Source: a virus. From it: 23,542 nt of DNA. Both the position numbers and the translations under genes were made by a program. The notes under the pieces are model-generated. The model had not been told where the DNA came from and did not search any database. It saw nothing but the letters and a program-made list of their open reading frames with translations. The stretch is taken from positions 1 through 23,542 of the IMG/VR virus record IMGVR_UViG_3300027917_003858; one strand, written 5' to 3'. Positions 2,826 to 18,393 of the stretch are shown here, one piece after another; the stretch's first letter is position 1, and every line of letters begins with the position of its first letter.

Positions 2826-3822
2826 CGCTGCTCCATTTTTGCACAGTTTCCAGGAGGAGCTCACCAAGGAGGCGCTCGCGCCCTTGCTGCGCCGGGTCGC
2901 GCCCGCGCTCGGGTCGGGCGTTGGGATCGGCGGCACGCTGGGCGGTGTGGGCGGCGCGCTGCATGGCGGGGTGAAGGGTTACCGTGAGGCGCGCAGGGAA
3001 GGCGCTGGTGGCGGGCTGGCGACGATACAGGGGTTGGAGCGCGCACTTGGCAGCGGGGCCAAGGGTGCCCTCCTGGGCGCCACAACGGGCGCTGCCGGGC
3101 TAGCCGGCGCTCGGGCGCTCGGGTCTACCGCAGGGGCCGGTCTGGCTGCGCGTGAGGGCTTCTTCCCGGCCCTGGCCCGTTTTGGGCAGAGGCAGCTCCA
3201 CGGCTTCACCGGGTGGAAGCCCCAGGCCGTTCGTGGGAAGGGAGGCCTCCGGTCCATCCGCGGAGGTGCCTGGGATGCGGAGAAGCGCTTGGCTACTATG
3301 CAGCAAGCGTACAAGGAGGCACCGACCCCTGCGAACCTGCGGAAGATGCAGCGAGCCGAGAAGTACCGCAATCTCGCCCTCGAGTCGGAGGCTATGGGCC
3401 TGACCAGCATTCCAGGCTACGCCAAGTCGCTGGTCCGCCAGCCGGGGAAGACGCTACGTACGGGCATGGGCGAGGTGTGGCATGGCATGGAGCCCATCGG
3501 GCGTGGGCTGATTTTCGGCCTGCCGGCCTACGGTACCGCGCGGGCGCTGACGACCGAGGGCGCTCCCGGCGAAGGAGGTAGGCTGGAGCGAGCAGGCGAG
3601 CAGCTGGGGATGCTGGCCTATGGGCTGGGCCCGATGCCCATCATGTCCCAGCTCGCGCTGCAACCAGCGATCAGCGGTGGGCTGAAGCGAGTCGGGAGGC
3701 TGGCACAGCGGCGGCGGCGGCCGGCCGAGCCCCCGAGCCCTCCTGGGCCGGTGGAGCCGGGGGGCGGGATGACACAAGCGGAGGATCGTGTGTACACTGA
3801 CCGGGCGGCGGCAAATCTATGA
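2818..3822 (+). CDS. Gly/Ala-rich putative membrane-active virion protein
   Basis: The gene encodes 334 aa from ATG at 2818, inside the end of the previous gene (8-nt overlap). After an amphipathic N-terminus (SFQEELTKEAL, residues 10-20) there are two long Gly/Ala-rich hydrophobic stretches at about residues 31-55 and 77-112. Both have glycine-zipper spacing (repeated GxxxG). A third hydrophobic patch lies near residues 230-280. The C-terminus is a run of arginines followed by a Pro/Gly-rich tail. Glycine-zipper segments of this kind occur in membrane-inserting peptides and in some internal head or ejection proteins of tailed phages, so a membrane-active injected protein is a plausible inference. 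No signal peptide is evident. The stop codon overlaps the portal ATG by 4 nt (ATGA), so the two are coupled. Confidence 0.68.
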   Translation: MFDAAPFLHSFQEELTKEALAPLLRRVAPALGSGVGIGGTLGGVGGALHGGVKGYREARREGAGGGLATIQGLERALGSGAKGALLGATTGAAGLAGARALGSTAGAGLAAREGFFPALARFGQRQLHGFTGWKPQAVRGKGGLRSIRGGAWDAEKRLATMQQAYKEAPTPANLRKMQRAEKYRNLALESEAMGLTSIPGYAKSLVRQPGKTLRTGMGEVWHGMEPIGRGLIFGLPAYGTARALTTEGAPGEGGRLERAGEQLGMLAYGLGPMPIMSQLALQPAISGGLKRVGRLAQRRRRPAEPPSPPGPVEPGGGMTQAEDRVYTDRAAANL

Positions 3823-5813
3823 TTGGTGGACTCGGCATAGGGCCCTCGACAGCGGTCAATCGTTTCGCCATTACCCGCGGGCGTTTGCACGGCGGGGTCA
3901 TCACACAGGGTGTCAACTACCCGCATCCCTTCTTCGACATCGCTCACACGTATCTGCCGGTCAGCATCAAGCAGCTGTTCCGCTGGTGTCGCTACTACTT
4001 CCTGACCAATCCACTTATCAACGCCACGGTCTTCAAGCTCAGCGAGTATCCGATCACCGACATCACGGTAGTGCATGACAACCCCAAGGTGGTCGAGCGC
4101 TGGACGGAGTACTTCCAGGAGCACCTGCGCTACCGTCCGTGGCAGGTGGAGTGCGGTCTTGACTACCACGCGCTGGGCAACTGCTCGGTGAGCATCGGCT
4201 TTCCATTCCACAAGTACCTGAAGTGTCAGTACTGCGGGTTCATGGAGCAGGCGAACCGTATTCGCTCTCAGTGGGTGTTCACGAACTTGGCATTCCGTCT
4301 GACCTGCCCGAAGTGCGGTACTACTTCCGAGGCGGGAGTGGAGGACTTCTACTACCGAGATGCCAACGGCATCAGGCTCATCCGCTGGAACTGCGAGTTC
4401 ATGGAGATCTCGTATAACGAGGTCACGGGCGACTCGACGTACTTCTACAACATCCCGCCGATGGTCAAGAACGATATCGTCATCGGCAAGAAGGATATCG
4501 TCGAGACCACACCGCAAGTCTTCATCCAGGCGCTGAAGCAGAACAAGGGCATCATCTTCGCCAAGGACAACTTCTTCCACATGAAGCGCCCTACGCTGGC
4601 GCAGCAGGACCGCGGATGGGGGATCCCCATCATCCTGCCGGTGCTCAAGGACACCTTCTACCTGCAGATCATGAAGAAGGCTCAGGAGGCCATCCTGCTC
4701 GAGCACATCGTCCCACTGCGCGTGCTCTTCCCACAGGCGGGCTCGGGCACCAGCGATCCGTACACGACGATCAACCTGGTGGAGTGGCGCGACCACGTCG
4801 CCACGGAGATCGCCCGGTGGCGCTATGACAACAACTACATTCCCATCATGCCCATCCCTCTTGGAAATCAGACCATCGGAGGGGATGGACGTGCTCTGCT
4901 ACTCACCCCGGAGATTCAGGCGTGGTCAGAGCACATCATGTCCGGTCTTGGGGTGCCAAGGGAGTTCCTGCTCGGAGGGATGTCTTACGCCGGGACTAAC
5001 GTCTCCATGCGTATGCTCGAGAACCAGTTCATCGGGTTCATCCTTCGGCACAAGCAGCTGGCAAACTGGGTGATGAAGCAGGTCGCCAGTTACATGGACT
5101 GGCCGGAGGCGGAGATCCGCTTCAAGCCCTTCAAGATGGCCGACGACATTCAGCGCAAGGCCTACCTCTTCCAGCTCAACCAGGCGCAGAAGGTCTCTGA
5201 CAGCACGCTGTTGGCCGACGCCGACCTGGATCAGATTCAGGAAGACGAAATCATGCTCAAGGAGACGGCCAAGCGCTTGGAGGCCAGCAAGAAGCAGCAG
5301 CTGGCCATGGCTGAGATTCAGGGCGAAGCGCAAGTGGTCATGGCCAAGTCTCAGGCCAAGGCGCAGCAGACCCTCATGAAGGCACAGCAGTCTCCGCCGG
5401 CGGAGGGCGAGCCTGGGCACGATGCACTGCAGCAGATGGGCAGCCCCATGAGCGCGCAGCAGCAGATACAGCAGCAGGGACCACAGCTCGGTGGAGACAG
5501 CCAGCAGACTACCGTGGGCATGGACATCCATCAGTACGCGCAGGCGCTGGCACAGCAGTTCGTGATGCTGACGCCGGAGCAGCAACAGATGGCCCTGCAG
5601 AATCTACAGCAGCAGAGTCCTGAGCTGGCACAGTTGGTGATGCAGTACGCCAAGCAGCTGATGTCGCAGCAACAGCAGGGCGCGCAGGTGCAGACGCCTC
5701 CCATGCTCGGGCCCGGTCAGGCGCAGCCGGCAGCGATGCGTGCGGCCACTCAGGTTGACATGCGTCCGCAACCGCAACAGCTTCCGCCACGAAGGGCAGC
5801 GGCATCAGTTTAG
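3819..5813 (+). CDS. Portal protein with inserted zinc ribbon
   Basis: The gene encodes 664 aa from ATG at 3819, in an ATGA overlap with the preceding gene. The portal is the dodecameric ring at one head vertex through which DNA is packaged and ejected. The call rests on size, position, and the overall pattern. An alpha/beta N-terminal body includes a DYHALGNCSVS segment like the 'YDYHVLGNA' region of many portals. A central region (PIMPIPLGNQTIGGDGRALLLTPE, about 344-367, then a GLGVPREFLLGG segment near 380) matches portal clip/stem-type sequence. The C-terminus is a long helical, Gln-rich tail. Two CxxC pairs at residues 136/139 and 163/166 form a probable zinc ribbon. Residues about 460-520 are Lys/Glu/Ala/Gln-rich and coiled-coil-like, and residues about 520-640 are Gln-rich and low in complexity. 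It is the last gene of its operon, followed by a terminator hairpin. Confidence 0.82.
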   Translation: MIGGLGIGPSTAVNRFAITRGRLHGGVITQGVNYPHPFFDIAHTYLPVSIKQLFRWCRYYFLTNPLINATVFKLSEYPITDITVVHDNPKVVERWTEYFQEHLRYRPWQVECGLDYHALGNCSVSIGFPFHKYLKCQYCGFMEQANRIRSQWVFTNLAFRLTCPKCGTTSEAGVEDFYYRDANGIRLIRWNCEFMEISYNEVTGDSTYFYNIPPMVKNDIVIGKKDIVETTPQVFIQALKQNKGIIFAKDNFFHMKRPTLAQQDRGWGIPIILPVLKDTFYLQIMKKAQEAILLEHIVPLRVLFPQAGSGTSDPYTTINLVEWRDHVATEIARWRYDNNYIPIMPIPLGNQTIGGDGRALLLTPEIQAWSEHIMSGLGVPREFLLGGMSYAGTNVSMRMLENQFIGFILRHKQLANWVMKQVASYMDWPEAEIRFKPFKMADDIQRKAYLFQLNQAQKVSDSTLLADADLDQIQEDEIMLKETAKRLEASKKQQLAMAEIQGEAQVVMAKSQAKAQQTLMKAQQSPPAEGEPGHDALQQMGSPMSAQQQIQQQGPQLGGDSQQTTVGMDIHQYAQALAQQFVMLTPEQQQMALQNLQQQSPELAQLVMQYAKQLMSQQQQGAQVQTPPMLGPGQAQPAAMRAATQVDMRPQPQQLPPRRAAASV

Positions 5814-5880: not shown

Positions 5881-6315
5881 TCAGCCCTGGGGATGGAACA
5901 CGGTGTAGTTGTCGAATCCCTGGTCGGCGCAGCACACCGGTTTGGGATCGGACCCCGGCTGTCCCGTGGGCTGCGGGGGAGCGACCTCGGCTTGCGCCTT
6001 GGCGATCTCCGCCTCGACCATCTCCCAGGTGAGGTGCCCCGCCTGGTCGCGCTGCTTCTTCAGAACCTCCGCCAGGTTTTTCGCGAGCTTGTTGTAGTCC
6101 GTGAGGTAGTAGCCGACCACCTCGGTCGCCGCGGCGGCGGCCTGGGTGACGACGACGGCAGCGCTCAACACGGCCTGCGTGGGGCGGAAGAACTGCTTCA
6201 TGCAAGCCTTGTCGAGCCCGAGGGCCTCGACGAAGCAGTTCTTGATGCCGATCGAGTTGCGCTTCACGACGAGAGCCGCTGCGACGATCGCACGGATGTG
6301 CACGTTCGTATTCAT
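5881..6315 (-). CDS. Small Ala-rich phage protein of unknown function
   Basis: The gene encodes 144 aa and starts at ATG 6315, preceded by a strong ribosome-binding site (GAGGTG, 4 nt spacing). The N-terminal 17 residues are hydrophobic (RAIVAAALVV) but followed at once by Lys-Arg. A second hydrophobic Ala/Val stretch at about residues 47-71 could be a membrane segment or a buried helix. Residues 72-112 are charged and helical, coiled-coil-like. The last 30 residues are Pro/Gly-rich with a CC pair (128-129). It stands alone as a leftward unit with its own promoter-like motif upstream and a terminator downstream. The layout and a potential membrane helix would fit a small lysis or membrane protein, but nothing specific supports that. 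Confidence 0.68.
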   Translation of the reverse strand: MNTNVHIRAIVAAALVVKRNSIGIKNCFVEALGLDKACMKQFFRPTQAVLSAAVVVTQAAAAATEVVGYYLTDYNKLAKNLAEVLKKQRDQAGHLTWEMVEAEIAKAQAEVAPPQPTGQPGSDPKPVCCADQGFDNYTVFHPQG

Positions 6316-6359: not shown

Positions 6360-6378
6360 ATTATTCTTATCCCCGTTT
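6360..6378 (-). promoter_or_regulatory. Candidate phage promoter motif, copy 1
   Basis: Read on the minus strand the element is AAACGGGGATAAGAATAAT. It lies about 44 nt before the ATG at 6315 and just downstream of the terminator of the preceding leftward operon. It matches 15 of 19 positions of the element before the other leftward unit (10566-10584), with GATAAGAA fully conserved. The position suits a promoter, and AATAAT resembles a -10 box, but no good -35 box sits 16-18 bp upstream. That leaves a phage-specific promoter as a possibility. Confidence 0.5.
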
Positions 6379-6403
6379 TCAGGGCGTTTTTGAGGCTAAG
6401 GAA

Positions 6404-6429: not shown

Positions 6430-7857
6430 CTACCGTTCGTAAGGATCGCGTAGCTTTTGGTCATCGCTGACCACCACAAGGTGCCCCCATCTGGCGGGCC
6501 TGCGTCCGTTGGGCGTGGGCACGATGCACCACACCACTTCCATGTCCTGCGGAGGGTTCTCTGGCGCCACTCCGTCGCCGTCGGTGAAGTAGATACAGAT
6601 GTCCGGTTTCGGTTTGAGCTTCCGGACTGCTTCGAGTGCAGGTCTGAAATCAGTACCTCCTCTACCATACACAGGAAGGGTAGCTACATCTCTCATGCGT
6701 ATTCTCTTGGGCTCGATTGACACCTTGGAGTCGGCATCGAACCACCAGGCATCGTCGATGCCCAGCTGCTTGAATACGCCCACTGTCTCGGCTCGCGCCG
6801 GCAACAGCTGTTCCGCTCCCATTGAGCCGGAGCTGTCTTCAACGATCACCACTACTACTTTTCGGTCCACCATCCCCGGACGGATGATGCCTCTGGTGTA
6901 AGACTTCTTGGACGGGTACCGCATGGAATAGTCGGCTTGCCCGCACACGATGCGTCCCGTCGCTCGGCGTATGACTCGGCTGAGCGTCATGCGCCACGGC
7001 ACGACGGACGGTCCGGGCTTCTCCTGCAGGAGTTCTTCCAGGCTGCCCGGGATATCCCCGCGCCCCATGGACGCGGACTCTTTCACTGCCTGTAGCGTCT
7101 CATCGCGTAGACGCTTCACATCAGCAGGTGTTCTGCCTATCGCAGCGTCGAGCTGCTCTTCAAGGCTTCTGCTCAGCGGGCTTCCAGCGCAGCTGCCGCA
7201 GTGGCCCGCGGCGGGCCCACGTTGATCTTGGTGCTGGCCCGCACCGTTTCCGGGATCGCCTTTCTTGTCTCCCTTGCCATTCCCTGTGCTGTCACCATCT
7301 CCGTGCCCGCTCTGGCCGAAGCGGCCGCCACAATACTCGTGCACCTGGGGCATTTTATTCTGCAGCAGTTCATAGTACTGCTCGCCAGTGAGCCCAGGCT
7401 TCAGGCCAAAAGTGCGCGGGTAGCACCCACCCTCAGGCAGTTTGAACGCAGCTTTCTCTAGGTCGTGGTTGATGGGCAAGTCGAAAGCGATGTTGGCCAA
7501 CTCTTGGTTGGGCATGGCTTCGATTCGTTCCATATCCCGAAGGACGTGCATTACCTCGTGAGCCAGTAGACCACCACGTCTTTCAGTGGCTTCTTTACGC
7601 CTGTCGGTCGTGCTGAGATTGGTATCCAGTTTGTCCTCGATGCCCAGGAACCATTCTGGATCCATGTACAGGACCATGCCCCGTGTCACGCCGAACCCAC
7701 CTTTTCCGCCAGTCTGGGCCAGCATGCCGGGCAGGACTTTCGGCACGAGACCATAGAGAGTCGCGGAGAAGTATGGTGCTCTGTGCAGAAGATACGCCCT
7801 GGCCGCGGCCAGGGCATCCAAGCACTTCAGCTCTAGTTCTTCAGGAGTATTACTCAT
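6430..7857 (-). CDS. VWA-like protein with metallopeptidase-like N-terminus
   Basis: The gene encodes 475 aa. Residues 100-104 are HEVMH, an HExxH zinc-metallopeptidase signature, followed near 121-133 by NIAFDLPINHDL, the usual companion segment in DUF2201-type proteins. Residues about 180-225 form a Gly/Asp/Gln-rich linker with a CxxC. The C-terminal domain (about 330-475) is a von Willebrand A fold with a complete MIDAS: DSSGSM at 341-346, Thr402 in GGTDF, and Asp426 in TDGDG. Such VWA proteins pair with MoxR AAA+ ATPases as metal-dependent chaperone or remodelling systems. The pairing holds here: the ATPase gene lies directly upstream with an 8-nt overlap (ATGAGTAA). It is the last gene of the operon and is followed by a terminator. 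Whether the HEVMH domain is an active protease is unknown. Confidence 0.88.
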   Translation of the reverse strand: MSNTPEELELKCLDALAAARAYLLHRAPYFSATLYGLVPKVLPGMLAQTGGKGGFGVTRGMVLYMDPEWFLGIEDKLDTNLSTTDRRKEATERRGGLLAHEVMHVLRDMERIEAMPNQELANIAFDLPINHDLEKAAFKLPEGGCYPRTFGLKPGLTGEQYYELLQNKMPQVHEYCGGRFGQSGHGDGDSTGNGKGDKKGDPGNGAGQHQDQRGPAAGHCGSCAGSPLSRSLEEQLDAAIGRTPADVKRLRDETLQAVKESASMGRGDIPGSLEELLQEKPGPSVVPWRMTLSRVIRRATGRIVCGQADYSMRYPSKKSYTRGIIRPGMVDRKVVVVIVEDSSGSMGAEQLLPARAETVGVFKQLGIDDAWWFDADSKVSIEPKRIRMRDVATLPVYGRGGTDFRPALEAVRKLKPKPDICIYFTDGDGVAPENPPQDMEVVWCIVPTPNGRRPARWGHLVVVSDDQKLRDPYER

Positions 7858-9130
7858 CGATGTAATCTGTTAGACCCTTCTCGGAGTCGGACAGTGTCTG
7901 GATAATAGGCTGGGATGCGGCTTTCAGTGTCGGGGGAGCGCCCCTGACATCGAATCCGCAGCCTTGAGTGCACAGTATCTGTGCGTGCGTCATAGCCATA
8001 TCGGACATGCCCGCATCGATGAGATTCTGCAGTCTGTTCCAGGCCAGCGTGGCCATCTGATACTTTTCTTTGTTGTCCGGAATGTTGGTGACGTAAGTGG
8101 TGATGGAGCTGTAGACCGCCATCACTCGATCCAGGCGCGTGCGGTCGATGGGCCAACCGTTGACCAGGGCGTCTTTCGGGTTGGGCAGATCTGCGTTGGC
8201 GCGCCAGCTGATCCACTCCTGCGCAGGGCCCAGGCCCACACACGCTTCGACGAAGAACTGCTCCAGGTCCTCACTCATCTCAAGGCAGCGCACGGTGGCC
8301 ATGGCACGGCCGGCCATCCACCATGTGCGCGGTGAGGGCCAGCAGTAGCCAGCTTGCGGCTGGTCGGGAGCGGGCTGAGCGTGCAGTCTGCTCTGGTGGC
8401 TTTCCATGAAGCCGATCAGCAGTCCGCGGATGTACGCCCACTGTGCGGGCCAGTTCGTCCGTAGTTTCTGCATCGGTCCTTCGATAGGCGTGAACTGATC
8501 GGAGTGCTCTACCATCAGCCACTTGACCCAGGCACTTACTGGTGGGCACCGAACGTAGAAGTGGGCCAGGCGGTTGGCCATCGGAGGCTCCAGCCCCCAG
8601 CCGCCTGCGGCGTACGACGGGGGATTCGCAGCTAGGAGTATTCTGACACCAGGCATGATGGGCGTGGCTCCAACCATCCGGTCGAGAACCATGCCCAGCA
8701 TCGCGGCTTGCGTGGCGGGGGTGGCGCAACTGACCTCGTCGACGAAGAGCACTCCGTACATGAGCTTGTTCAGCTCGTTGACCTGGCTGAGCATGCAGGC
8801 TGACATGAGCTGCTGCTTGCCTTCCCCAGTTGGATCCATGACGACGGGTACGTCGCCGAACTCCTCGGGCTGTTTCTGACCCGGAAAAACGATTCTCACT
8901 GGCAGTCCGACGCGCCCGGCGCCCTGCTTCACCTTGTCGCTTTTCGCGATACCGGAGAGTCCCCAGAAGAGAGAAGGAAGACCCATGACGCATTGGGGGT
9001 CCAGCGGTCCCCGGGTGCCCATGGGCACCATCAGCGCGGCGCTGATGATCTCGTCAAACTTGAGCGTGACATCGGGGATGACTGCTCCCCCGGTGTCACG
9101 TTCTACTTGCGACTGTTGTGGTCTAGGCAT
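7850..9130 (-). CDS. MoxR-family AAA+ ATPase
   Basis: The gene encodes 426 aa. It has an AAA+ core with a P-loop at about residues 57-64 (GLSGIAKS, with Ala where the usual Gly precedes Lys) and Walker B LFVDE at 128-132. Sensor 1 is in LLAANPP (Asn169), and an arginine-finger-type ANRL lies at 185-188. A segment near 91-105 (FGDVPVVMDPTGEG) resembles the MoxR substrate-loop region. The C-terminal 200 residues look helical, as in MoxR lid domains. MoxR ATPases form hexamers that remodel protein or metal-centre targets together with VWA partners, and the downstream gene encodes such a partner. The start at 9130 lies inside the end of the upstream zinc-protein gene (8-nt overlap), with a modest GGAA ribosome site. 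The bacteriophage target is unknown. Confidence 0.86.
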   Translation of the reverse strand: MPRPQQSQVERDTGGAVIPDVTLKFDEIISAALMVPMGTRGPLDPQCVMGLPSLFWGLSGIAKSDKVKQGAGRVGLPVRIVFPGQKQPEEFGDVPVVMDPTGEGKQQLMSACMLSQVNELNKLMYGVLFVDEVSCATPATQAAMLGMVLDRMVGATPIMPGVRILLAANPPSYAAGGWGLEPPMANRLAHFYVRCPPVSAWVKWLMVEHSDQFTPIEGPMQKLRTNWPAQWAYIRGLLIGFMESHQSRLHAQPAPDQPQAGYCWPSPRTWWMAGRAMATVRCLEMSEDLEQFFVEACVGLGPAQEWISWRANADLPNPKDALVNGWPIDRTRLDRVMAVYSSITTYVTNIPDNKEKYQMATLAWNRLQNLIDAGMSDMAMTHAQILCTQGCGFDVRGAPPTLKAASQPIIQTLSDSEKGLTDYIDE

Positions 9131-9731
9131 TCTTTATTTCCATAGGATGTACATGCACACAGTGGCCGTCAGCGGAACAGCCGTGCCGCCAACAGCGTAG
9201 GTTGGTTCCTTCTTCGCACTCGCTGCACTGGACAATGCGGCCGCCCCACATTTCTGCGACGTCCTTCTCGACGATGTTCAGGCATGAGATGCAGATCAGC
9301 AACGGTTTCGGGTCGGGGCTGACGAAGCTGGCTGAGTATTCGCCATTGGGGCAGCGCTGCGACATCTCCAGCATTCCCATTACAGCCACGCCAAACAGCT
9401 CCCCGGTCCTTATACCGCTTTTGCAGACCTGACATTCAAAGGCAGCCTGGTCGTCGAAGACGGGAGGCTGATCACGGGTGTAGTCTCGGAGCTCCTCTTC
9501 TACTTGTGACCAGCACTCAGCGCAGAAGTAGCAGGGCTCGTAAAGGTAGTCACCATCATCTGCAGGGATGGGAGCGTACTGTAACCCGTTCTCTGTATAC
9601 CCGGCGCTGTGGACGGTGACCACCACCACATCCTCAGCGAAGGGTATTGGATCCTGGCAGAACGGGGCAGAGCAGCTGAAGTTGGTTACTGGCCACTCAT
9701 CTACGGGATCCATGGGTCGGCATATCTCCAT
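9123..9731 (-). CDS. Cys-rich multi-zinc-ribbon protein
   Basis: The gene encodes 202 aa from ATG 9731. The frame is open to 9824, but that extension lies entirely inside the upstream gene and reads as random Arg/His-rich sequence, so it was not used; ATG 9713 is another candidate. There are about 15 cysteines, most in CxxC-type pairs: 67/70/73, 100/103, 147/150, 169/172, plus 20/25, 127, 180, 185 and 191. This is enough for two to four structural zinc sites of ribbon or treble-clef type. The spacing resembles zinc ribbons of nucleic-acid- or ubiquitin-type binding proteins, but no named family was recognised. It sits directly before the MoxR ATPase gene, so it may be an adaptor or substrate of that system. 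Confidence 0.72.
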   Translation of the reverse strand: MEICRPMDPVDEWPVTNFSCSAPFCQDPIPFAEDVVVVTVHSAGYTENGLQYAPIPADDGDYLYEPCYFCAECWSQVEEELRDYTRDQPPVFDDQAAFECQVCKSGIRTGELFGVAVMGMLEMSQRCPNGEYSASFVSPDPKPLLICISCLNIVEKDVAEMWGGRIVQCSECEEGTNLRCWRHGCSADGHCVHVHPMEIKNA

Positions 9732-10240
9732 TTCAGTGGTTTCCTCTCTACACGCACCCAGCGACAGTCGATGGTCTCGAGTCGGGTGTCCGGCCCGAGT
9801 CCGGTGCGCTTGTCCATATCCCACAGTAGTAGGTTCAGCTCTTCGGCGTCCGCGCCGCCGTCGTGGATTCGTCTCACTATTTCAAGGTGGGGAGGTAGTA
9901 TTCCCGGAAACTGTTGGCGGAGTCTCAGCTCTCGTTCGTGCAAGTCATCGGCGAGATCTTCTTCGTCCACGCAGAACCCATACCAGTCTCCCTCGCCGAT
10001 CTCTGGGTACTCTTTGTCAGCCCAGTAGCAAAGTTCTCCTGGCTGCCCCACGCCTAAAAGGATCTCCAAATCCCTTTGGTTGCAGAAAGTCACGTAGCCT
10101 TTGTCGTCGACGAGCTTGGCACGGACTCCACTCAGGGCACGACCAGGAATAGGGGCGAAAAGATACTGGAGGGTCCAGACGCGACCTGGGGTGGCCGGGT
10201 CGGGATAACGGAACCCGGCCAGTCCCAGATCAGTCGTCAA
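9701..10240 (-). CDS. Unknown phage protein, start uncertain
   Basis: The C-terminal part of this frame is convincing coding sequence. It includes YLFAPIPGRALSGVRAKLV, then an acidic region with DWYGFCVDEEDLADDL, a helical EELNLLLWDMDKR segment, and a Trp-rich end. The start is not clear. TTG at 10240 gives 179 aa, begins just after the 49-aa gene ends (10245), and has AGGA a few nt upstream. TTG at 10384 would give 227 aa but overlaps the whole 49-aa gene in another frame and has no ribosome site. The stop overlaps the next gene by about 30 nt. No domain was recognised. Operon position links it to the zinc protein and MoxR/VWA genes. Confidence 0.6.
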   Translation of the reverse strand: MTTDLGLAGFRYPDPATPGRVWTLQYLFAPIPGRALSGVRAKLVDDKGYVTFCNQRDLEILLGVGQPGELCYWADKEYPEIGEGDWYGFCVDEEDLADDLHERELRLRQQFPGILPPHLEIVRRIHDGGADAEELNLLLWDMDKRTGLGPDTRLETIDCRWVRVERKPLKWRYADPWIP

Positions 10241-10244
10241 GATC

Positions 10245-10394
10245 CTAGTCCCCGGTATCGTCTCGAGGCGAGTCTTGTACGGGTTGAGTAACAAGACGCC
10301 ACCATCGCTGCTGTTCGCGGACGTAGCAGTCACGTACCCAGAACAACAGTCCCGAACCGACACCGGTGATGAAGGACAACCCAAACAGATGCAC
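10245..10394 (-). CDS. 49-aa putative single-span membrane peptide
   Basis: A GTG start at 10394 shares its first base with the stop of the upstream micro-gene (TAGTG), a typical coupled arrangement. The product is 49 residues: one hydrophobic segment at about residues 3-20 (LFGLSFITGVGSGLLFWV), then an Arg/Trp-rich stretch and an acidic tail ending DDTGD. The pattern fits a small inner-membrane protein with its positive side in the cytoplasm. It overlaps the possible N-terminal extension of the next gene in a different frame, so only one of the two readings may be used. No homologue was recognised. Confidence 0.5.
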   Translation of the reverse strand: MHLFGLSFITGVGSGLLFWVRDCYVREQQRWWRLVTQPVQDSPRDDTGD

Positions 10395-10531
10395 TAGGTT
10401 TGTTCACTCCCGTCTTCTTGCTCCGTGGTTTGCGTCTGCGCTTCGTCGCCGGCATCCTTTTCGGCGTACAAAGCATCCTGGTCTTCCTGCTCCAGACTGC
10501 CCGAGTTGTCCTTGTCTCTCGGTCCTTTCAT
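10394..10531 (-). CDS. 45-aa acidic, disordered peptide
   Basis: ATG at 10531 is preceded by a strong ribosome-binding site (AGAGAGGT, 10535-10542), and the frame runs 45 codons to a TAG that overlaps the next start. The product is very hydrophilic, with about a third Asp/Glu plus Gln, Thr and Ser (EQEDQDALYAEKD). It lacks hydrophobic residues and is probably disordered. It is the first gene of the leftward operon. Small acidic phage proteins of this type can be inhibitors or DNA mimics of host proteins, but that is speculation here. An in-frame upstream ATG with a poor ribosome site would add 12 residues. Confidence 0.55.
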   Translation of the reverse strand: MKGPRDKDNSGSLEQEDQDALYAEKDAGDEAQTQTTEQEDGSEQT

Positions 10532-10565: not shown

Positions 10566-10584
10566 ATAGTTCTTATCTCTGTTT
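10566..10584 (-). promoter_or_regulatory. Candidate phage promoter motif, copy 2
   Basis: Read on the minus strand the element is AAACAGAGATAAGAACTAT. It lies about 34 nt upstream of the first leftward start codon (10531), inside the divergent control region. It shares 15 of 19 positions with the element at 6360-6378. Both precede the first gene of a leftward unit at similar distance, and both lack a clear bacterial -35 box. It is the best candidate for the promoter of the six-gene leftward operon. Confidence 0.5.
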
Positions 10585-10638
10585 CGTTTGGTACCTTGCG
10601 GCCGCTGCAAAATGTGCGCTACTCTGGGGTCACTGCGG

Positions 10639-10651: not shown

Positions 10652-13600
10652 ATGGCTTACCTGGACCACGATGAGGCCTACGAGGCCTTCAAAGAGAGAA
10701 CCCTCGAGGGTGTCAAAGAACACTTCCCCATCCAGACTCCCTACCGGACCATCGAACTGAACGGTCTGGAAGTGGATGAGAAGGGACTTCATCCGGACGA
10801 TATTCGGAGTCAGCTGGCCGCGCGCATGAATGGGCGGACGTGGGCCTCTACACTCATGGGGGACATCTCTCTGAAGGACACCAAGACGGGCAAGGTGCTG
10901 GACCGCCAAAAGGTGCGTCTTGCCGACCTCCCCCGGGTGACCAAGCGTCGCAGCTTCATCATCGACGGCAAGGAGTACCAGGTCGAGAACCAGTGGCAGT
11001 TGAAGCCGGGCATCTACTCCCGGCGCAACGTCGCTGGGCAGATTGAGGCGCACTTCAATGTTCCAAACAAACGGGAGTTCGACATCACATTCGACCCGGA
11101 CTCCAAGCAGTTCATGATGGCCCGAGGGGGCTCCAAGGCCATTCCCGTGTACCCGCTCATGAAGACTATGGGCATCGATGACGATACCCTGGAACGTGAC
11201 TGGGGGCCGGAGATCCTGCAGGCCAACAAGCAAGCCAAGGGACTTACAGGTGCGCTGGCCAAGTTCTTTCGTGTGGACCGCCGGCGCCAGCCCAAGACGG
11301 ATGAGGAAGCAGAAACCTACTTCCGCACCACAATGGAAGAATCTCTGCTTCGGCCGGAGGCTACAGCACTGACTACCGGGAAGCCTTATACCAATGTCAC
11401 TAATGGCGCTTTGCGTGACGCCTCCAAGCGCTTGTTGGAGATTCAGGGAGGAGCGCCGGAGGACGATCGGGACTCCATCATCTTCAAGGACCTGCGCACT
11501 ACTGGTGACTATGCTTACGAAAAGTTGACTTCCAGGGACGTGAAGAACTCGGTGCGCAAGAGAGTAACTAGAAAGCTATTCAAGGCGCAGGGAGTACGGG
11601 ATCTCATCAAATCCGACATGTTCAACGATCCCATCCGCAAGACTTTCACGAAGAACTCCCTGTCGAACCACGCGACACAGATCAATCCCATCGCCATGCT
11701 GGCGGGCGCGCAGCAGACGACCATCATGGGCCCGGGTGGCATCCAGAGCCAGGACGCAGTCGACAACATGGTGGACGCGAAGTTCATCAATCCGTCACAT
11801 CTGGGGTATCTGGACCCAGTACGCACGCCCGAGAGTGAGAAGTCGGGTGTGGTGCTCAGGCTTCCGATGGGCCTGCGCAAGAAGGGCAGTGAGCCGGTAG
11901 TCTGGTTGTACAACACGAAGAAGAGCAAGGTGGAGCTCGTACCTCCTAACCAGTTCTTCAGCTCCACCGTGGTGCTGCCCGACCAGGTACGTTGGGAAGG
12001 AAAGAAGCCAGTACCGATAGGTGCAAAGGTAAAGGCGTCAGGTCCCCGAAATCAGTTGACGGAAGTCCGCATGTCTGACGCCGACTACGTGATGCGACAT
12101 CCTTCTCAAGTTTTTAGCCTCACTACTAATCTTATCCCGTTTTTGGGTAATAACTCCGGCAACCGTGCCACTTACGCAACGCAGCACCTGGAGCAGGCAA
12201 TCTCATTGAAGGATCGGGAAGTGCCCTACGTGCAGGTGGCGACCGGCCACGAGCAGGAGGGTCTCCGAACTTTCGAGGAACTGGTCGGCCGAGCAGCGTC
12301 ACACCCATCGCCGGTTTCAGGGGTGGTCACGCGCGTGAAGAAGAACGGCATTGTGATCAAGGGGCCGCAGGGACTGGAGACGGTGCAGCTCTACGAGAAC
12401 TTCCCTCTCAACGATCCCAAGGCCGTCATGCACTCGGAGCCCATAGTCAAGCCTGGGCAGACTGTGCAGCGCAGGCAAAGCATCGCTGACAGTAACTTCA
12501 CACGAGATGGCGTCTTGTCGCTGGGAGTCAATCTGCGGACAGCCTACGCACCCTACAAGGGTTACAACTTCGAGGATGGCGTTGTGATCGGCCAGGGTGC
12601 AGCAAGGAAACTCACCAGCGAGCACATGCACAAGCCTGAGCTACGGCTGGAGAAGAATACCGTCACCGATCCCAGGAAGTTCAAGATTCAGCATATCGAT
12701 GCCTACGGCAAAGAGCAGTACGGCAAGCTGGACGATGTTGGCGTGATCCGGGTGGGAGAGGAAGTACAGCCTGGGGATCCGCTGGTGTTGGCCATGCGCC
12801 CCTATCAGGTGAAGGACCAGTTGAGCCTACAGCAAATAGGCAAGGCGCTGGCGGGTAAGCAGGTCGATACGAGCCTGCGGTGGACTTCTGATTACCCAGG
12901 CAAGGTAGTGGGTGTGCACAAAGCCAGAGACAAAATGATCGTGCATGTGCGCACCGAGGAGCCCATGCAAGTGGGTGACAAGATCACTGGCAGGCACGGC
13001 AACAAGGGCATCGTCACCAAAATACTCCCGGACGAAGAGATGCCACACACGCCTGACGGACGGCCGGTGGATGTCCTGCTCAATCCACTCGGGGTCGTGG
13101 GGCGCATGAACGTCGGTCAGGTGCTGGAGACCGCCGCGGGCAAGATAACCGAGAAGACCGGCAAGACTTACGTGGTGGACAACTTCGCGAACGTGGATCA
13201 GCTGGCGAAGGTGAAGGCGGAGCTGCAGAGACATAAAATACCTGACAAGGAAGATCTCATAGACCCTACGTCGGGTAAGTCCTTGGGCGCGGCGCTCGTG
13301 GGCCCGCAGTACACGCTGAAGCTGACGCATCAGATAGATAAGAAAAACTCTGCGCGGTCCGGGATGGCGCTGCCTGGTGGTGAGGAAGATCCGGAACTCT
13401 ATGACCGGAACTTACTGCCTGCCGGTGGTGGAAAGACGGGTGGTCAATCCATCGGGGCGCTGGATCTGTATACACTGCTCGCCCATGGCGCCAAGGCCAA
13501 TATACGGGAGATGCAGACCTGGAAGAGTGAGGGGCCGGATGTACGGCACCCTGATCCAGCCAAGCAGTGGCCGACGCAGCATGATGATGTCTGGGAAGCC

Positions 13601-16600
13601 ATGCAGTTGGGGCATCCACTTCCGACGCCGAAACCCACGTTTTCCTATCGCAAGTTCGAGGACATGCTCCGCGCGACCGGAGTCAACGTGGAAAAGAGAG
13701 GTCACCACCTGCAGCTTCTGCCCATGACGGACAGGCAGATACTCAACATGTCCTCGGGCGAGATCAGGAAGCCCGGCGAGGTCGTCTATCCCAGCTTGGA
13801 CAAAAGCGGAGAGCCGAAGCCAATCAAAGGTGGCTTGTTCGATCCCGTGGCCACAGGTGGGCATGGCGGCAAGCGGTGGTCTCACGTCTCGCTGGCAGAG
13901 CCTGTACCTAACCCCATGTTCGAGAAGGCGATTCAAAGAGTCACAGGCTTGAAAGAAAAGGATTATCTCGCCGTGACCCGCGGTGAGAAGGCGGTGGACC
14001 GCGAGGGTAATATAGTGGAGCTGGGGACGACCGGCGCTGACACCGGCGGCGCTGCGATCGCCAAGATGCTGAAGAAGATCGACGTGTCTTCCAGCCTGAA
14101 GAAAGCGGAAGATGAACTGACGCAGATGACGCTGCCTTCCACTGCTGCACACAGGCCAACGCCAGCCAAGGTGGATAAACTGGTCAAGCAGGTCAAGACC
14201 CTGCGCGCATTAGAGCAGGCCAATCTTTCTCCGGACGAGGCCTACATCCTTCGGAACCTGCCGATAATCCCGCCCACCATGCGCGCGCCGTCCATTTTGC
14301 CCAACGGCAACATCAAGGCAGGGGACCTCAACCAGCTCTACAAGGACTTCGGGCACGTCAACACGACGATGAAAGACCCGGAGTTGATGCCCTATCTCGA
14401 CGACGAGGGCAAGAAAAGACTGCGAGGCAGTTTGTACGATGGCGTGCGAGCCCTGATGGGCATCGGCGTACCCTACGCTGACCAAAGGCACAAGGGCATC
14501 CTACATCAGATAGCAGGCGCACCAGCCAAAGAGGGCTACTTCCAGAATGTCTTGATGTCCCGCCGGCAGAATATGTCTTTGCGATCCACCATCGTGCCGG
14601 AGCCCGCACTGGATTTGGACGAGGTGGGATTGCCCAAAGAGAAAGCCCTCACGCTGTACAAACCGTTTGTAGTCAACAAGCTTATGGAACAAGGAGCCGC
14701 GCGCAATGTCCTGGAGGCGCGGGGGATGGTAACGGCTCAGGACAATGCTGTCTGGCGCGCTCTGGACGCTGTCGCACAGGAACGCCCCATTCTACTGAAG
14801 CGCGACCCCGTCCTGCACAAGCATGGCGTTCAGGCGTTTCGGCCCAAGCTGGTGGGAGGCAAGGCGATCCAGATCCACCCACTGGTGACAAGCGGCTATA
14901 ACGCGGACTTCGATGGCGACCAGATGAGTGCGTATGTGCCTATCAGCCGGGAAGCTGTAGAGGAAGCCAGGCGGATGATGCCGTCGCGCAACCTGTTCAA
15001 CGAAGCGTCGGGCAGGGTCGCCTATCCAACGAAGCACGAAATGTCTATGGGGCTGTTCAGCCTCAGCCGAGTTGTTGGGTCGAACAATCAAAGGTACACC
15101 AGCCCGGCGGCGGCAATCAAAGCTGTGGGTGATGGCAAGTTGAAACTGAACGAGTTGACGAACATCGGCGGTACCAAAACTACCGCTGGCCGTGTCTTGA
15201 TTGCTTCCGCTCTGCCGGAGCCGATGCGCGATTCTGTGCTCAAGGATCACAGAAAAGTTCTGGACGACGCTGGCGTCGAGACGTTGCTGGATACGGCAGC
15301 TAGGTCATACACGAATGAATACGGAGACATTGCGAACAGGCTGAAGGACATAGGCAACGGAGCCGCATCCGGCGCTATCCCAATCCCTCATGGTGCGTTG
15401 GGATTGGATGCCATCAATATAGCGGAGGGTAAGCAGCAATATCTTTCCGTTCCCATGCAGTCCTTCGGTCTCGATGACTTCGAGCCTGACCGTGCGGTTC
15501 GCGATCCCATCTTCCGTGCCGCGAAGGTACAGGCGGACGCCATAATGGCCAGTAAGACTATCCCCGCAGGTGACAAGGAACGGCGGGTAGCGGATTTATG
15601 GACGCGTGCCTCCGAAAAAATGATGGGCGCGCACCTGGCCAAAGCCGCCCGGAAGCCCAACGACCTGGATCTCATGCTGGCATCGGGTGCCAGACTCAAG
15701 CAGGATCAGTACAAGCAGATGATCATCTCTCCGGTTTTGATGGAGGATGCTGCAGGCAAACCGATCTTGCAGCCCATCGAGAAATCCTACTCTGAGGGCC
15801 TCGACCTTGCTGGTTACTGGACTCAGCAACAGGGCGCGCGTCGTGGGACGGTCATGAAGGTGCAGGAGGTGCGCGACCCGGGCACGTTTTCCAAGCGCAT
15901 GATTCAGACCACTATGAACTTGGTTGTGACTGGAGACGACTGTGGCACGGATCAGGGCATTGCCATGAATGTCGGCGACAGCAATATCTACGATCGTACA
16001 CTGGCCAAGGACTTCAATGCCAAGAACACCCACTTCAGCGCCGGCACCCTACTTACTCCCGATGTGGTCAGCAAGATACGGGCTGCGGATAAAGCGGCCA
16101 ACGTCATAATCCGAAGTCCACTAAAATGCGAGCACGGGACGGGCCTCTGCCAGAAGTGTGCTGGCCTGAAAGCCGATGGCAAGGAGTATGACCTGGGTAC
16201 AAACGTGGGGATTCTTGCTTCGCAATCAATGGGGGAGCGTTCGACGCAGTTGACCATGAAGCAGTTCCACACTGGAGGTGTGCGTACAACAGGCGGGGCG
16301 CGTGCAGTCAATGACTTCGAGCGCGTAGAGCAGCTGACCTACTTGAAGAAGAGTATTCCCGATGAGGCAGTGCTGGCCAAGAAGTCTGGGAGGGTCGAGA
16401 AGATTGAAGCTGACCCGACCGGCGTCAAAGTCTGGGTTGGGGGCGAGTCTCACCATGTAGGTAAGGACAAGGCAGGTATGCCGCTGCACGTCAACTTGCC
16501 GGGCGCGAGTAAGTACACTGGGTACAAAGGCTGGAAGCCACCGAAGGTGGGAACCAAGGTGAGCGCCGGCGATGTACTGTCCGATCCCAATCGGACGGTC

Positions 16601-17107
16601 ATCAACCCCAGAACTTTATACGAAGCCACCAACAACATGGAGAAGGTACAGAACTTTCTCGTGGATGAGCTGTCCGGTATCTATGGCAAGGATGTTCGGC
16701 GGCAGCATGTGGAGGCGGCCGTCAAGGCCATGGGCAATCTGACGAAGATCCGTGATCCTGGTGATGCCGAGGGTATTCTGAAGGGAGAGTTCCAGCCCGC
16801 TTCCGAGATCCGGGCCCTGAATCGGCGGCTGCTCAAGGAAGGCAAGCAGCCAGTGGAGCACTCTCCCGTACTGAAGGGCATCGATCAGATGCCGCTGGCA
16901 GTGCAGGAAGACTGGATGGCCAAGCTACAGCACCAGGAGCTGCGTGGGACTCTACTCGAGTCAGCGGCTATCGGCGCGCGCGCCAACCTGCACGGTATCC
17001 ATCCGGTGCCTGGGGCGGCTTATGGTGCCGAGTTCGGCTTGACTTCTGAGCATGCCAACAAGCCGGGCCTGTCCCATCTGAAAGACGTTCCGAGGTACGC
17101 GTACTGA
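10652..17107 (+). CDS. Single-chain RNA polymerase, fused beta and beta-prime
   Basis: The gene encodes 2151 aa. The open frame extends upstream to 10400, but that part is not RNAP-like and lies over the divergent operon; ATG 10652 begins a credible N-terminus. The beta-like part (about 1-970) has a GPGG rifampicin-region segment (about 338-363) and GYNFEDG (637-643). It also has GDKITGRHGNKG (775-786), with both active-site lysines (777, 785), and LNPLGVVGRMN. The beta-prime-like part (about 1020-2151) begins with SSGEIRKPGEVVYPS and has LPIIPPTMR. Its catalytic motif is NADFDGDQM (1417-1425), with three Mg-binding Asp. It also has a bridge helix (SGAR..), a zinc quartet Cys1764/1826/1833/1836, and a trigger loop with TQLTMKQFHTGG (1865-1876). 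The N-terminal beta-prime zinc finger is absent. It is shorter than bacterial beta plus beta-prime (about 2750 aa). The stop overlaps the spike-like gene's ATG by 1 nt. Confidence 0.96.
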   Translation: MAYLDHDEAYEAFKERTLEGVKEHFPIQTPYRTIELNGLEVDEKGLHPDDIRSQLAARMNGRTWASTLMGDISLKDTKTGKVLDRQKVRLADLPRVTKRRSFIIDGKEYQVENQWQLKPGIYSRRNVAGQIEAHFNVPNKREFDITFDPDSKQFMMARGGSKAIPVYPLMKTMGIDDDTLERDWGPEILQANKQAKGLTGALAKFFRVDRRRQPKTDEEAETYFRTTMEESLLRPEATALTTGKPYTNVTNGALRDASKRLLEIQGGAPEDDRDSIIFKDLRTTGDYAYEKLTSRDVKNSVRKRVTRKLFKAQGVRDLIKSDMFNDPIRKTFTKNSLSNHATQINPIAMLAGAQQTTIMGPGGIQSQDAVDNMVDAKFINPSHLGYLDPVRTPESEKSGVVLRLPMGLRKKGSEPVVWLYNTKKSKVELVPPNQFFSSTVVLPDQVRWEGKKPVPIGAKVKASGPRNQLTEVRMSDADYVMRHPSQVFSLTTNLIPFLGNNSGNRATYATQHLEQAISLKDREVPYVQVATGHEQEGLRTFEELVGRAASHPSPVSGVVTRVKKNGIVIKGPQGLETVQLYENFPLNDPKAVMHSEPIVKPGQTVQRRQSIADSNFTRDGVLSLGVNLRTAYAPYKGYNFEDGVVIGQGAARKLTSEHMHKPELRLEKNTVTDPRKFKIQHIDAYGKEQYGKLDDVGVIRVGEEVQPGDPLVLAMRPYQVKDQLSLQQIGKALAGKQVDTSLRWTSDYPGKVVGVHKARDKMIVHVRTEEPMQVGDKITGRHGNKGIVTKILPDEEMPHTPDGRPVDVLLNPLGVVGRMNVGQVLETAAGKITEKTGKTYVVDNFANVDQLAKVKAELQRHKIPDKEDLIDPTSGKSLGAALVGPQYTLKLTHQIDKKNSARSGMALPGGEEDPELYDRNLLPAGGGKTGGQSIGALDLYTLLAHGAKANIREMQTWKSEGPDVRHPDPAKQWPTQHDDVWEAMQLGHPLPTPKPTFSYRKFEDMLRATGVNVEKRGHHLQLLPMTDRQILNMSSGEIRKPGEVVYPSLDKSGEPKPIKGGLFDPVATGGHGGKRWSHVSLAEPVPNPMFEKAIQRVTGLKEKDYLAVTRGEKAVDREGNIVELGTTGADTGGAAIAKMLKKIDVSSSLKKAEDELTQMTLPSTAAHRPTPAKVDKLVKQVKTLRALEQANLSPDEAYILRNLPIIPPTMRAPSILPNGNIKAGDLNQLYKDFGHVNTTMKDPELMPYLDDEGKKRLRGSLYDGVRALMGIGVPYADQRHKGILHQIAGAPAKEGYFQNVLMSRRQNMSLRSTIVPEPALDLDEVGLPKEKALTLYKPFVVNKLMEQGAARNVLEARGMVTAQDNAVWRALDAVAQERPILLKRDPVLHKHGVQAFRPKLVGGKAIQIHPLVTSGYNADFDGDQMSAYVPISREAVEEARRMMPSRNLFNEASGRVAYPTKHEMSMGLFSLSRVVGSNNQRYTSPAAAIKAVGDGKLKLNELTNIGGTKTTAGRVLIASALPEPMRDSVLKDHRKVLDDAGVETLLDTAARSYTNEYGDIANRLKDIGNGAASGAIPIPHGALGLDAINIAEGKQQYLSVPMQSFGLDDFEPDRAVRDPIFRAAKVQADAIMASKTIPAGDKERRVADLWTRASEKMMGAHLAKAARKPNDLDLMLASGARLKQDQYKQMIISPVLMEDAAGKPILQPIEKSYSEGLDLAGYWTQQQGARRGTVMKVQEVRDPGTFSKRMIQTTMNLVVTGDDCGTDQGIAMNVGDSNIYDRTLAKDFNAKNTHFSAGTLLTPDVVSKIRAADKAANVIIRSPLKCEHGTGLCQKCAGLKADGKEYDLGTNVGILASQSMGERSTQLTMKQFHTGGVRTTGGARAVNDFERVEQLTYLKKSIPDEAVLAKKSGRVEKIEADPTGVKVWVGGESHHVGKDKAGMPLHVNLPGASKYTGYKGWKPPKVGTKVSAGDVLSDPNRTVINPRTLYEATNNMEKVQNFLVDELSGIYGKDVRRQHVEAAVKAMGNLTKIRDPGDAEGILKGEFQPASEIRALNRRLLKEGKQPVEHSPVLKGIDQMPLAVQEDWMAKLQHQELRGTLLESAAIGARANLHGIHPVPGAAYGAEFGLTSEHANKPGLSHLKDVPRYAY

Positions 17108-18393
17108 TGACGTCTGGAAGAGATACACTCGGGCGCCTCAACCGAGACACGCAGATCTCCCCCGATCAGCAGACGAAGAACATCAGCTTCTTTCAGCCGG
17201 AAGGGGTCATAGGTGCCATCATCATCGAGGGGCAGGTCGCAGATCTAAATATGGCGCTCTGGACCGTGGATGTCGTCTCGAAGTTCGACCACAAGTTCTA
17301 TCCCAACATCCAGGTCTCATCTCCGTACCAAGACCCAGTCAGTGGCGCTGGCATCTACGTGATGCCTGACATTGGAACGAAGTGTCACATCTGCATTCCT
17401 AGTGATGGTCCACCACCCTTCCTACTGGATTTCATCATGCCTTCTGAGCAGAACTTCGCGGAGGAGGAAGAGGAGGACGGAGATCCAGCAGTAGACAACT
17501 ATCCGGATAAGACTTTTAGTGGCGGTCGTCCCAAGCCCAAGCCTGGAGACATCTACATTCGGGGGCGGGATGGAAACTTTGCGATACTGCATCGCGGGGG
17601 TGTGCTGCAGATAGGCTGCTCCGAGCTCGCGCAGAGGATCTACATACCGCTCGAGAACCTGATCACGGACATCAGCCAGAACTACAGGCACTACAACACC
17701 GGCGGCGCCATCAACTGGTTCCTCGCCCCGGGCGAATCGAAGACTAACCCACACACGGTCAAGAAGGAGACCTACCGCATACGCGCGGCCGACAAGGAAG
17801 CCACGATCCGCGTGGCCATCGGTGAGCTACGCGACCCGGTACCCGAAACCATCAGCGAGGTCAGCTCGGACATGGGCCAGAACCAGATGGCGACGAAGGA
17901 CAGTCCCATCTACTGTGAGGTGACGTTGGCACCAGAGGGGTTCAAGGCCGACACCGGAGCGTCCGAGGAGAATGTAGGGGACTTGACTACCCTGCGCTAC
18001 TTCTTCGACAAGGCTGGCAACGTACTTCTGCGCACGCAGGGAAGCGTCGTCATGCACGCCGAGAGAAACCTCACGCTGCGTGCGAAGGAGATTATGAAGC
18101 TCGAGTCCGAGCAGCTGGTAGTCAATACCAAAGGCGCGACGATACAGGCGGAGGATTACCTTCAGATCTCAACCAAGGGCATGCGGGTAAACGCTGGGCA
18201 GAACCCAGCCGCGCACGTGGGCTCAGTGGTAGAAGTAGTACTCGGTCCCACAACTCCTCTACTGCTGGCGTTGCCTGTAGCTGGTGCCGCTGCTCCGCCC
18301 AACTGCACAATACCTCCGGGGACGCCGATCACAGTTCAGCCGACAATCCTTAGAGGCACTGTTACTACCGGCCAGACCAAGGTCCTCATCTGA
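17107..18393 (+). CDS. Baseplate/tail spike-like protein (OB fold plus beta repeats)
   Basis: The gene encodes 428 aa from ATG 17107, sharing one base with the RNAP stop (TGATG). Residues about 33-115 look like the OB-fold domain of gpV/gp5-type spike proteins: VIGAIIIEGQVADL, then VVSKFDHKFYPNIQVSSPY, PDIGTKCHICIPSDG and PFLLDFIMP. An acidic loop follows (EEEEEDGD). Residues about 150-390 are rich in short beta strands (GNFAILHRGGVLQIG, GNVLLRTQGSVVMHAERNLTLRAKEIMKLES). This is the pattern of a trimeric beta-helix shaft. The C-terminus is Pro/Thr-rich. This architecture suggests the membrane-piercing spike or baseplate hub of a contractile tail; a siphovirus tail-tip role is an alternative. 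It is co-expressed with the polymerase and overlaps the next ATG by one base. Confidence 0.68.
   Translation: MTSGRDTLGRLNRDTQISPDQQTKNISFFQPEGVIGAIIIEGQVADLNMALWTVDVVSKFDHKFYPNIQVSSPYQDPVSGAGIYVMPDIGTKCHICIPSDGPPPFLLDFIMPSEQNFAEEEEEDGDPAVDNYPDKTFSGGRPKPKPGDIYIRGRDGNFAILHRGGVLQIGCSELAQRIYIPLENLITDISQNYRHYNTGGAINWFLAPGESKTNPHTVKKETYRIRAADKEATIRVAIGELRDPVPETISEVSSDMGQNQMATKDSPIYCEVTLAPEGFKADTGASEENVGDLTTLRYFFDKAGNVLLRTQGSVVMHAERNLTLRAKEIMKLESEQLVVNTKGATIQAEDYLQISTKGMRVNAGQNPAAHVGSVVEVVLGPTTPLLLALPVAGAAAPPNCTIPPGTPITVQPTILRGTVTTGQTKVLI

Follow-up and report, generated by a model that had tools for sequence, protein, structure and literature searches.

A MoxR-VWA gene cassette with conserved micropeptides opposite a fused RNA polymerase gene in a clade of large uncultured bacterial viruses

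The IMG/VR record IMGVR_UViG_3300027917_003858 (23,542 bp, analysed over its whole length and called the window hereafter) derives from a large uncultured bacterial virus. It exhibits a cassette of six leftward open reading frames (ORFs), which includes a MoxR-type ATPase and a VWA protein and faces the gene of a fused β-β' multisubunit-type RNA polymerase (RNAP). The six ORFs run from position 10531, the ATG of an acidic peptide gene, to position 6430, each overlapping the next by 1-50 nt. The RNAP gene begins with an ATG at 10652, 120 bp from the cassette on the opposite strand, so that the two are placed head to head. The features of the locus are as follows.

10652..17107, plus strand: fused β-β' multisubunit-type RNAP, 2,151 aa, the divergent neighbour (Pfam Rpb2_6 5e-60, Rpb1_2 3e-28, Rpb1_5 2e-16)
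10569..10599, minus strand: promoter-like element GCAAG-N17-GATAAG upstream of the cassette, of putative promoter function
10394..10531, minus strand: acidic micropeptide, 45 aa, the window peptide having a net charge of -10 (in the clade, motif FExDVDELFG and a tail of mainly acidic residues)
10245..10394, minus strand: single-transmembrane (TM) micropeptide with a GTG start (motif FxxFxxGxxNGLLxW; hydropathy peaks 1.3-2.2)
9701..10294, minus strand: orphan protein, 197 aa, with a TTG start (11 homologues, 46-58% identical to that of the window)
9123..9731, minus strand: Cys-rich, probably zinc-binding protein, 202 aa, 16 Cys (pattern CxxC..[H/C]xxCW..CxxC..CxxC in 12 homologues)
7850..9130, minus strand: MoxR-type AAA+ ATPase, 426 aa, homologue of N4 gp24 (phrog_1297 2.1e-29; hhalign against N4 gp24 3.7e-17)
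6430..7857, minus strand: DUF2201-type metallopeptidase-VWA protein, 475 aa, putative adaptor or co-chaperone (Pfam; phrog_1314 4e-51; hhalign)

The ATPase and VWA genes adjoin on one strand, overlapping in the window, and keep the same order wherever the contigs of relatives reach both. Judging from its homology and motifs, the ATPase is a divergent MoxR-type AAA+ protein. Its Pfam score lies under the gathering cut-off (AAA_3, 11.7 bits against 27, E-value = 0.24), as does that of the homologue in the related contig L003 (AAA_5, 20.6 bits against 22), and it matches profiles of PspF, midasin and RavA weakly. Residues G57, G60, K63, D131-E132 (Walker B), N169 (sensor 1) and R187 (the ANR arginine) are invariant among the 11 homologues aligned. 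The Walker A motif of the window protein reads GLSGIAKS, an alanine replacing the last glycine, likewise in L093 and L095.

The VWA protein matches DUF2201_N (PF13203, E-value = 1.1e-21, 78.1 bits against a cut-off of 23.2) and the DUF2201 VWA-like domain (PF09967, E-value = 2.5e-16, 60.3 bits against 26.4). The sequence HEVMH occupies residues 100-104, and the metal-ion-dependent adhesion site (MIDAS) is composed of D341-x-S343-x-S345, T402 and D426. H100, E101, H104 and all of the MIDAS residues are invariant among 10 homologues. Profile alignment by hhalign relates the protein to N4 gp25 (1.3e-23) and AR9 gp029 (8e-23). The name "HNH endonuclease" given to it in PHROG is a mislabel; Pfam and the motifs give a metallopeptidase plus a VWA domain.

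Seven of the 16 cysteines of the Cys-rich protein are invariant across relatives. Its AlphaFold2 model has a mean predicted local distance difference test score (pLDDT) of 82.5, and profile and fold searches of the PDB returned nothing significant. The orphan protein is the most conserved product of the non-enzymatic cassette genes, and its AlphaFold2 model is confident (pLDDT 90.7). It exhibited no Pfam or PHROG match, nothing significant in PDB profile and fold searches and no relative in a scan of bacterial and archaeal genome contigs; in the records tested, AR9 included, its family was not found outside the cassette clade described below. The TM micropeptide occurs in 12 of 12 clade members, with its motif or a sequence near it, those of L101 and L105 being read from translated frames. 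An ORF likewise fills the acidic-peptide slot in all 12, most of them carrying FExDVDELFG; the slot ORFs of L099, L101, L104 and L105, together with those of the outgroups L009 and L010, are weak examples with net charges of +4 to -4. Since both micro-ORFs are kept across 12 related phages, most with common motifs, we regard them as real.

An earlier reading of the window, made from its letters and hereafter called the sequence-only reading, had described a six-gene leftward operon opposite the polymerase gene, and this arrangement is confirmed. Its MoxR/VWA remodelling pair is borne out by the agreement of Pfam, PHROG, motif conservation and the alignments with N4 gp24/gp25; the ATPase it named is divergent and below the Pfam cut-off, as said above, and the HEVMH and full MIDAS that it had assigned to the VWA protein were both located. 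The membrane peptide and the acidic peptide also hold up, being conserved across the clade. Its zinc protein of roughly 15 Cys is Cys-rich as described, with the count corrected to 16 and only 7 of these invariant, and zinc binding is probable.

A scan of viral contigs with RNAP as bait yielded 80 loci, and scans with alignments of the orphan and VWA proteins yielded more cassette carriers. Single-protein scans of the viral contigs with the VWA protein or the ATPase returned no relatives; alignments were needed as query. The four larger cassette genes exhibit the same order and orientation beside the RNAP gene in 11 further contigs, the RNAPs being 50-56% identical, though two of the contigs are cut short, L008 before the VWA gene is complete and L100 within the ATPase gene. 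In every contig recovered with the orphan or VWA baits, the RNAP gene faces the cassette head to head and the gene order is unchanged. This recurrence of the gene block is far beyond chance. In an RNAP tree built without the near-duplicate L100 and same-phage copies, the 12 cassette carriers (window included) form one clade with a support of 1.000. Within the clade, records reach up to 190 kb, and no cultured member was found for it.

Upstream of the cassette, the element GCAAG-N17-[GC]ATAAG is present at fixed spacing in 12 of 12 carriers, L105 having a variant with GCAAC and CATAAC. The strict pattern has 11 matches in six related records plus the window, all on the cassette strand, against about 0.2 expected under a Markov model. 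A weight matrix built from the cassette sites, which are counted among its own matches, gave 60 matches of at least 10 bits, 53 of them on the cassette/replication strand; one simulated set gave 14. The element lies directly upstream of dnaB in the 120-kb record G028, and a variant with a 16-base spacer precedes dnaB in G002. It also occurs 172 bp upstream of a Ro60/TROVE gene in G002, and at the same distance before the Ro60/TROVE gene of L003. Because it precedes dnaB and the Ro60 gene as well, with a strong strand bias, this putative promoter-like element suggests early or middle expression of the cassette. Two homologous pairs lend this independent support. In AR9, an annotated early promoter stands just before the ATPase gene of the pair gp028/gp029; AR9 early promoters were mapped in PMC5312081, where the portion available to us does not name these two genes. 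N4 gp24/gp25, in which the ATPase gene also comes first, are middle genes (PMC4193335).

The wider gene order can be followed in G028. There, replication genes (UvsX, PolA, primase, DnaB, helicase) form a leftward module, after which come rightward genes up to that of the portal-like protein, the leftward cassette and then, rightward again, the genes of the RNAP, a spike-like protein, terminase, a protease-like protein, capsid and tail sheath. With such a gene content, tail sheath included, the phage is a myovirus. The cassette forms an island of replication-strand genes within the structural region. Its flanks in the window are the following.

3819..5813, plus strand: portal-like protein, 664 aa, the conserved left neighbour of the cassette (phrog_16240 portal, 2.6e-5)
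17107..18393, plus strand: probable baseplate-spike-like protein, the conserved right neighbour of the RNAP gene (synteny; weak phrog_9992 baseplate assembly match in a homologue, E-value = 0.0075)

The portal-like protein exhibits 56-66% identity in the six relatives compared.

We propose, with a probability of roughly 0.55, that the cassette encodes an early or middle ATP-driven remodelling, and possibly proteolytic, machine of a large myovirus. The observed gene order, homology, catalytic motifs, conservation and distribution lead us to infer its ring formation, MIDAS docking, proteolysis, timing and target as follows. The VWA protein would hold the target, its MIDAS metal binding an acidic residue, by analogy with NorQ/NorD, for which experiments support both AAA+/VWA remodelling and docking of the MIDAS to acidic residues of the target (PMC9976466). 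The AAA+ ring would then pull or reshape the target in an ATP-driven manner, and the HExxH zincin domain could cut it. The ATPase, the VWA protein and the orphan would have been added once to an older small operon facing the RNAP gene. The machine would most likely be made together with the replication (early or middle) genes, its main job probably concerning some complex of the phage or the host at the stage of takeover, replication or transcription, and not only late virion assembly. It would not be an obligate RNAP assembly factor. NorQ/NorD, CbbQ/CbbO and RavA/ViaA resemble the phage pair in joining a MoxR AAA+ protein to a VWA-MIDAS adaptor (PMC9976466), but they act on bacterial respiratory or Rubisco targets, the N-terminal domain of NorD is different, and the profile match to RavA is weak.

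Several points weigh against this proposal. The promoter role of the element is deduced from sequence, and the close relatives compared are metagenomic contigs, some of them incomplete. The alanine in Walker A of the window, L093 and L095 could lower ATPase activity. Finally, the position of the cassette in the midst of portal, spike and terminase genes is also compatible with virion assembly.

The pair might indeed be a virion-assembly chaperone or processing protease that remodels and cuts head or tail proteins, an alternative that we consider unlikely though quite conceivable. Iyer et al. (2021) proposed virion assembly for homologous jumbo-phage pairs with the same domain architecture, MoxR plus metallopeptidase-vWA, and the part of that paper at hand describes neither a micro-operon nor an RNAP linkage (PMC7824862). 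The same part relates a tail-assembly role for the MoxR/VWA pair of Acidianus two-tailed virus, a likewise viral pair that differs in belonging to an archaeal virus and in having no peptidase domain (PMC7824862). The cassette is situated between portal-like and baseplate/terminase genes in six relatives, and phage RPP1 has a mid-phase second structural module near its N4-like homologues (PMC4193335). However, the cassette is on the strand opposite to the structural genes, its promoter-like element is shared with dnaB, the AR9 pair follows an early promoter and the N4 pair is of the middle class (PMC4193335), and relatives with the same portal, RNAP and spike genes lack the pair. It is this timing evidence that makes us lean, and no more than lean, to an earlier role over assembly. 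Early or middle timing would also suit a host-takeover or anti-defence device that takes apart or inactivates a complex of the host or of its defence, with membrane targeting by the TM peptide and the acidic peptide as decoy. The patchy distribution of the pair across phage groups and the presence of both micropeptides in the same operon agree with such a device, but N4 gp24/gp25 belong to the Schitoviridae core, shared by all 25 N4-like phages compared (PMC4193335), a status unusual for an anti-host accessory, and we hold this explanation to be very improbable. The sequence-only reading had offered the disabling of a host complex as its second suggestion, on which the evidence tells neither way.

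A third possibility is that the pair serves the giant fused RNAP, by folding, loading, processing or regulating it; the sequence-only reading had suggested a role in assembling this enzyme. The head-to-head layout in all clade members favours the idea. So does another multisubunit-RNAP lineage: of its 20 records of 70 kb or more, 18 have the pair (a co-occurrence count, not an enrichment test), and eight of these loci place the VWA gene downstream of an RNAP gene at a distance of up to about 10 kb. AR9/PBS1, with multisubunit RNAPs, likewise has the homologous adjacent pair, located away from the RNAP gene found, and a broken copy of the pair co-occurs with such RNAPs in LPJP1. But the pair is not present wherever a related RNAP occurs. 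Outgroups with the portal-RNAP-spike order, several of them with portal-RNAP gaps of 0.4-1.4 kb, gave no VWA match, including the 202-kb record G004, and the pair is absent from the complete phages Arash and D69, which have related RNAPs. In the first RNAP-baited set, only 4 of the 11 records of 70 kb or more gave a clear VWA match, and the pair is far from the RNAP gene in G014 and G026. Conversely, VWA homologues occur in 187 phage records, many from N4-like phages, and such phages have the pair without a multisubunit RNAP; N4 itself possesses phage-type RNAPs, an intact Walker A motif and, as annotated, none of the acidic, TM, zinc and orphan companions at the locus. Moreover, all neighbours are syntenic throughout the cassette clade, so that the linkage counts as one event and not 12.

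Because relatives with the same layout, as well as Arash and D69, lack the pair, it is not generally needed to build such an RNAP, and by its distribution it is neither necessary for nor exclusive to these enzymes. The suggested assembly role is thereby weakened, and we give it little chance. Co-occurrence of the cassette with the fused RNAP, which the sequence-only reading had proposed to examine, is found as linkage in one clade and as recurrence in another RNAP lineage and in AR9, and fails in other phages with related RNAPs. The situation that the same reading had named as speaking for an unrelated role, presence in many phages without the RNAP, largely obtains for the core pair, while the small genes still look RNAP-linked. 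A functional link between pair and RNAP is possible in some lineages.

This linkage of the small genes extends to outgroups. In L005, L006 and L021, the gap encodes, on the strand opposite the RNAP gene, first an acidic ORF with a short TM ORF directly after it, then Cys-rich proteins with CxxC and HxxC. L009 and L010 exhibit a short ORF with the identical end DDVEEALGGSSK, plus a zinc-type protein opposite RNAP; in each case this is a small Cys-rich protein that follows the short ORF (L009:3399-3656 and L010:3163-3414, both on the minus strand). Similar ATAAG-type elements were seen by eye upstream of several outgroup ORFs. Alignment by hhalign of the outgroup zinc proteins (L005, L006, L021) with the cassette Cys protein gave probabilities of 4-57%, which is only suggestive of homology. 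The acidic-peptide profile does not recover the outgroup peptides, whose equivalence is judged from their position, their charge and a short motif recognised by eye. These outgroups make it look as if the acidic peptide, the TM peptide and probably the zinc protein are old companions of the RNAP, older than the ATPase. In the simplest history, the small genes came first, and the orphan, ATPase and VWA genes were then inserted once, in the cassette clade; a single gain of the pair is favoured because the 12 carriers form one RNAP clade and outgroups with short gaps are without it.

A bolder version of this history appears improbable to us. In it, the acidic, TM and zinc genes would be a previously undescribed micro-operon, an ancient dedicated partner of the RNAP (e.g. 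accessory subunits or a membrane tether), and one clade would have recruited the MoxR-VWA-peptidase to remodel or release the polymerase complex, with the acidic peptide as MIDAS ligand. That last assignment is a guess. Since the acidic peptide is present in phages without the pair, acting as MIDAS ligand would not be its sole role.

MoxR-VWA pairs are core genes of whole phage families, and the parts of the literature available to us contain no experimental function for them in a tailed bacterial phage. The core pair is already known; the novelty lies in its companions and their order, in the insertion history and in the promoter-like element. The clade offers a compact setting for hypotheses on the target, with six genes, one promoter-like element, a fixed RNAP neighbour and relatives without the pair. 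The locus also brings to light two conserved micropeptides and an orphan protein, all of which would escape annotation, and yields a candidate promoter class for this virus clade.

Some further observations concern the window and the related records. A second promoter-like element, scoring 18.4 bits (window 6363-6393, minus strand), closely precedes a small, separate leftward ORF. An overlapping ORF called at 5881-6315 on the minus strand is without relatives in the six records compared. The Ro60/TROVE RNA-binding gene of L003 (L003:3730-5577, minus strand; TROVE 8e-44, vWA_Ro60 4e-55) is located downstream of the VWA gene. In Listeria phage LPJP1 (MZ422438.1, 7180-9950), the ATPase/VWA pair appears disrupted, its sequence spread over several frames that contain stops. 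In two cultured phages, Vibrio phage D69 (L173) and Salmonella phage Arash (L174), the RNAP fusion covers β and the N-terminal part of β'; in D69, a separate downstream gene encodes the C-terminal part of β'. The RNAP frames of L102, L103 and L104 contain in-frame inserts with LAGLIDADG homing-endonuclease domains and one weak intein-splicing match; these inserts are probably inteins.

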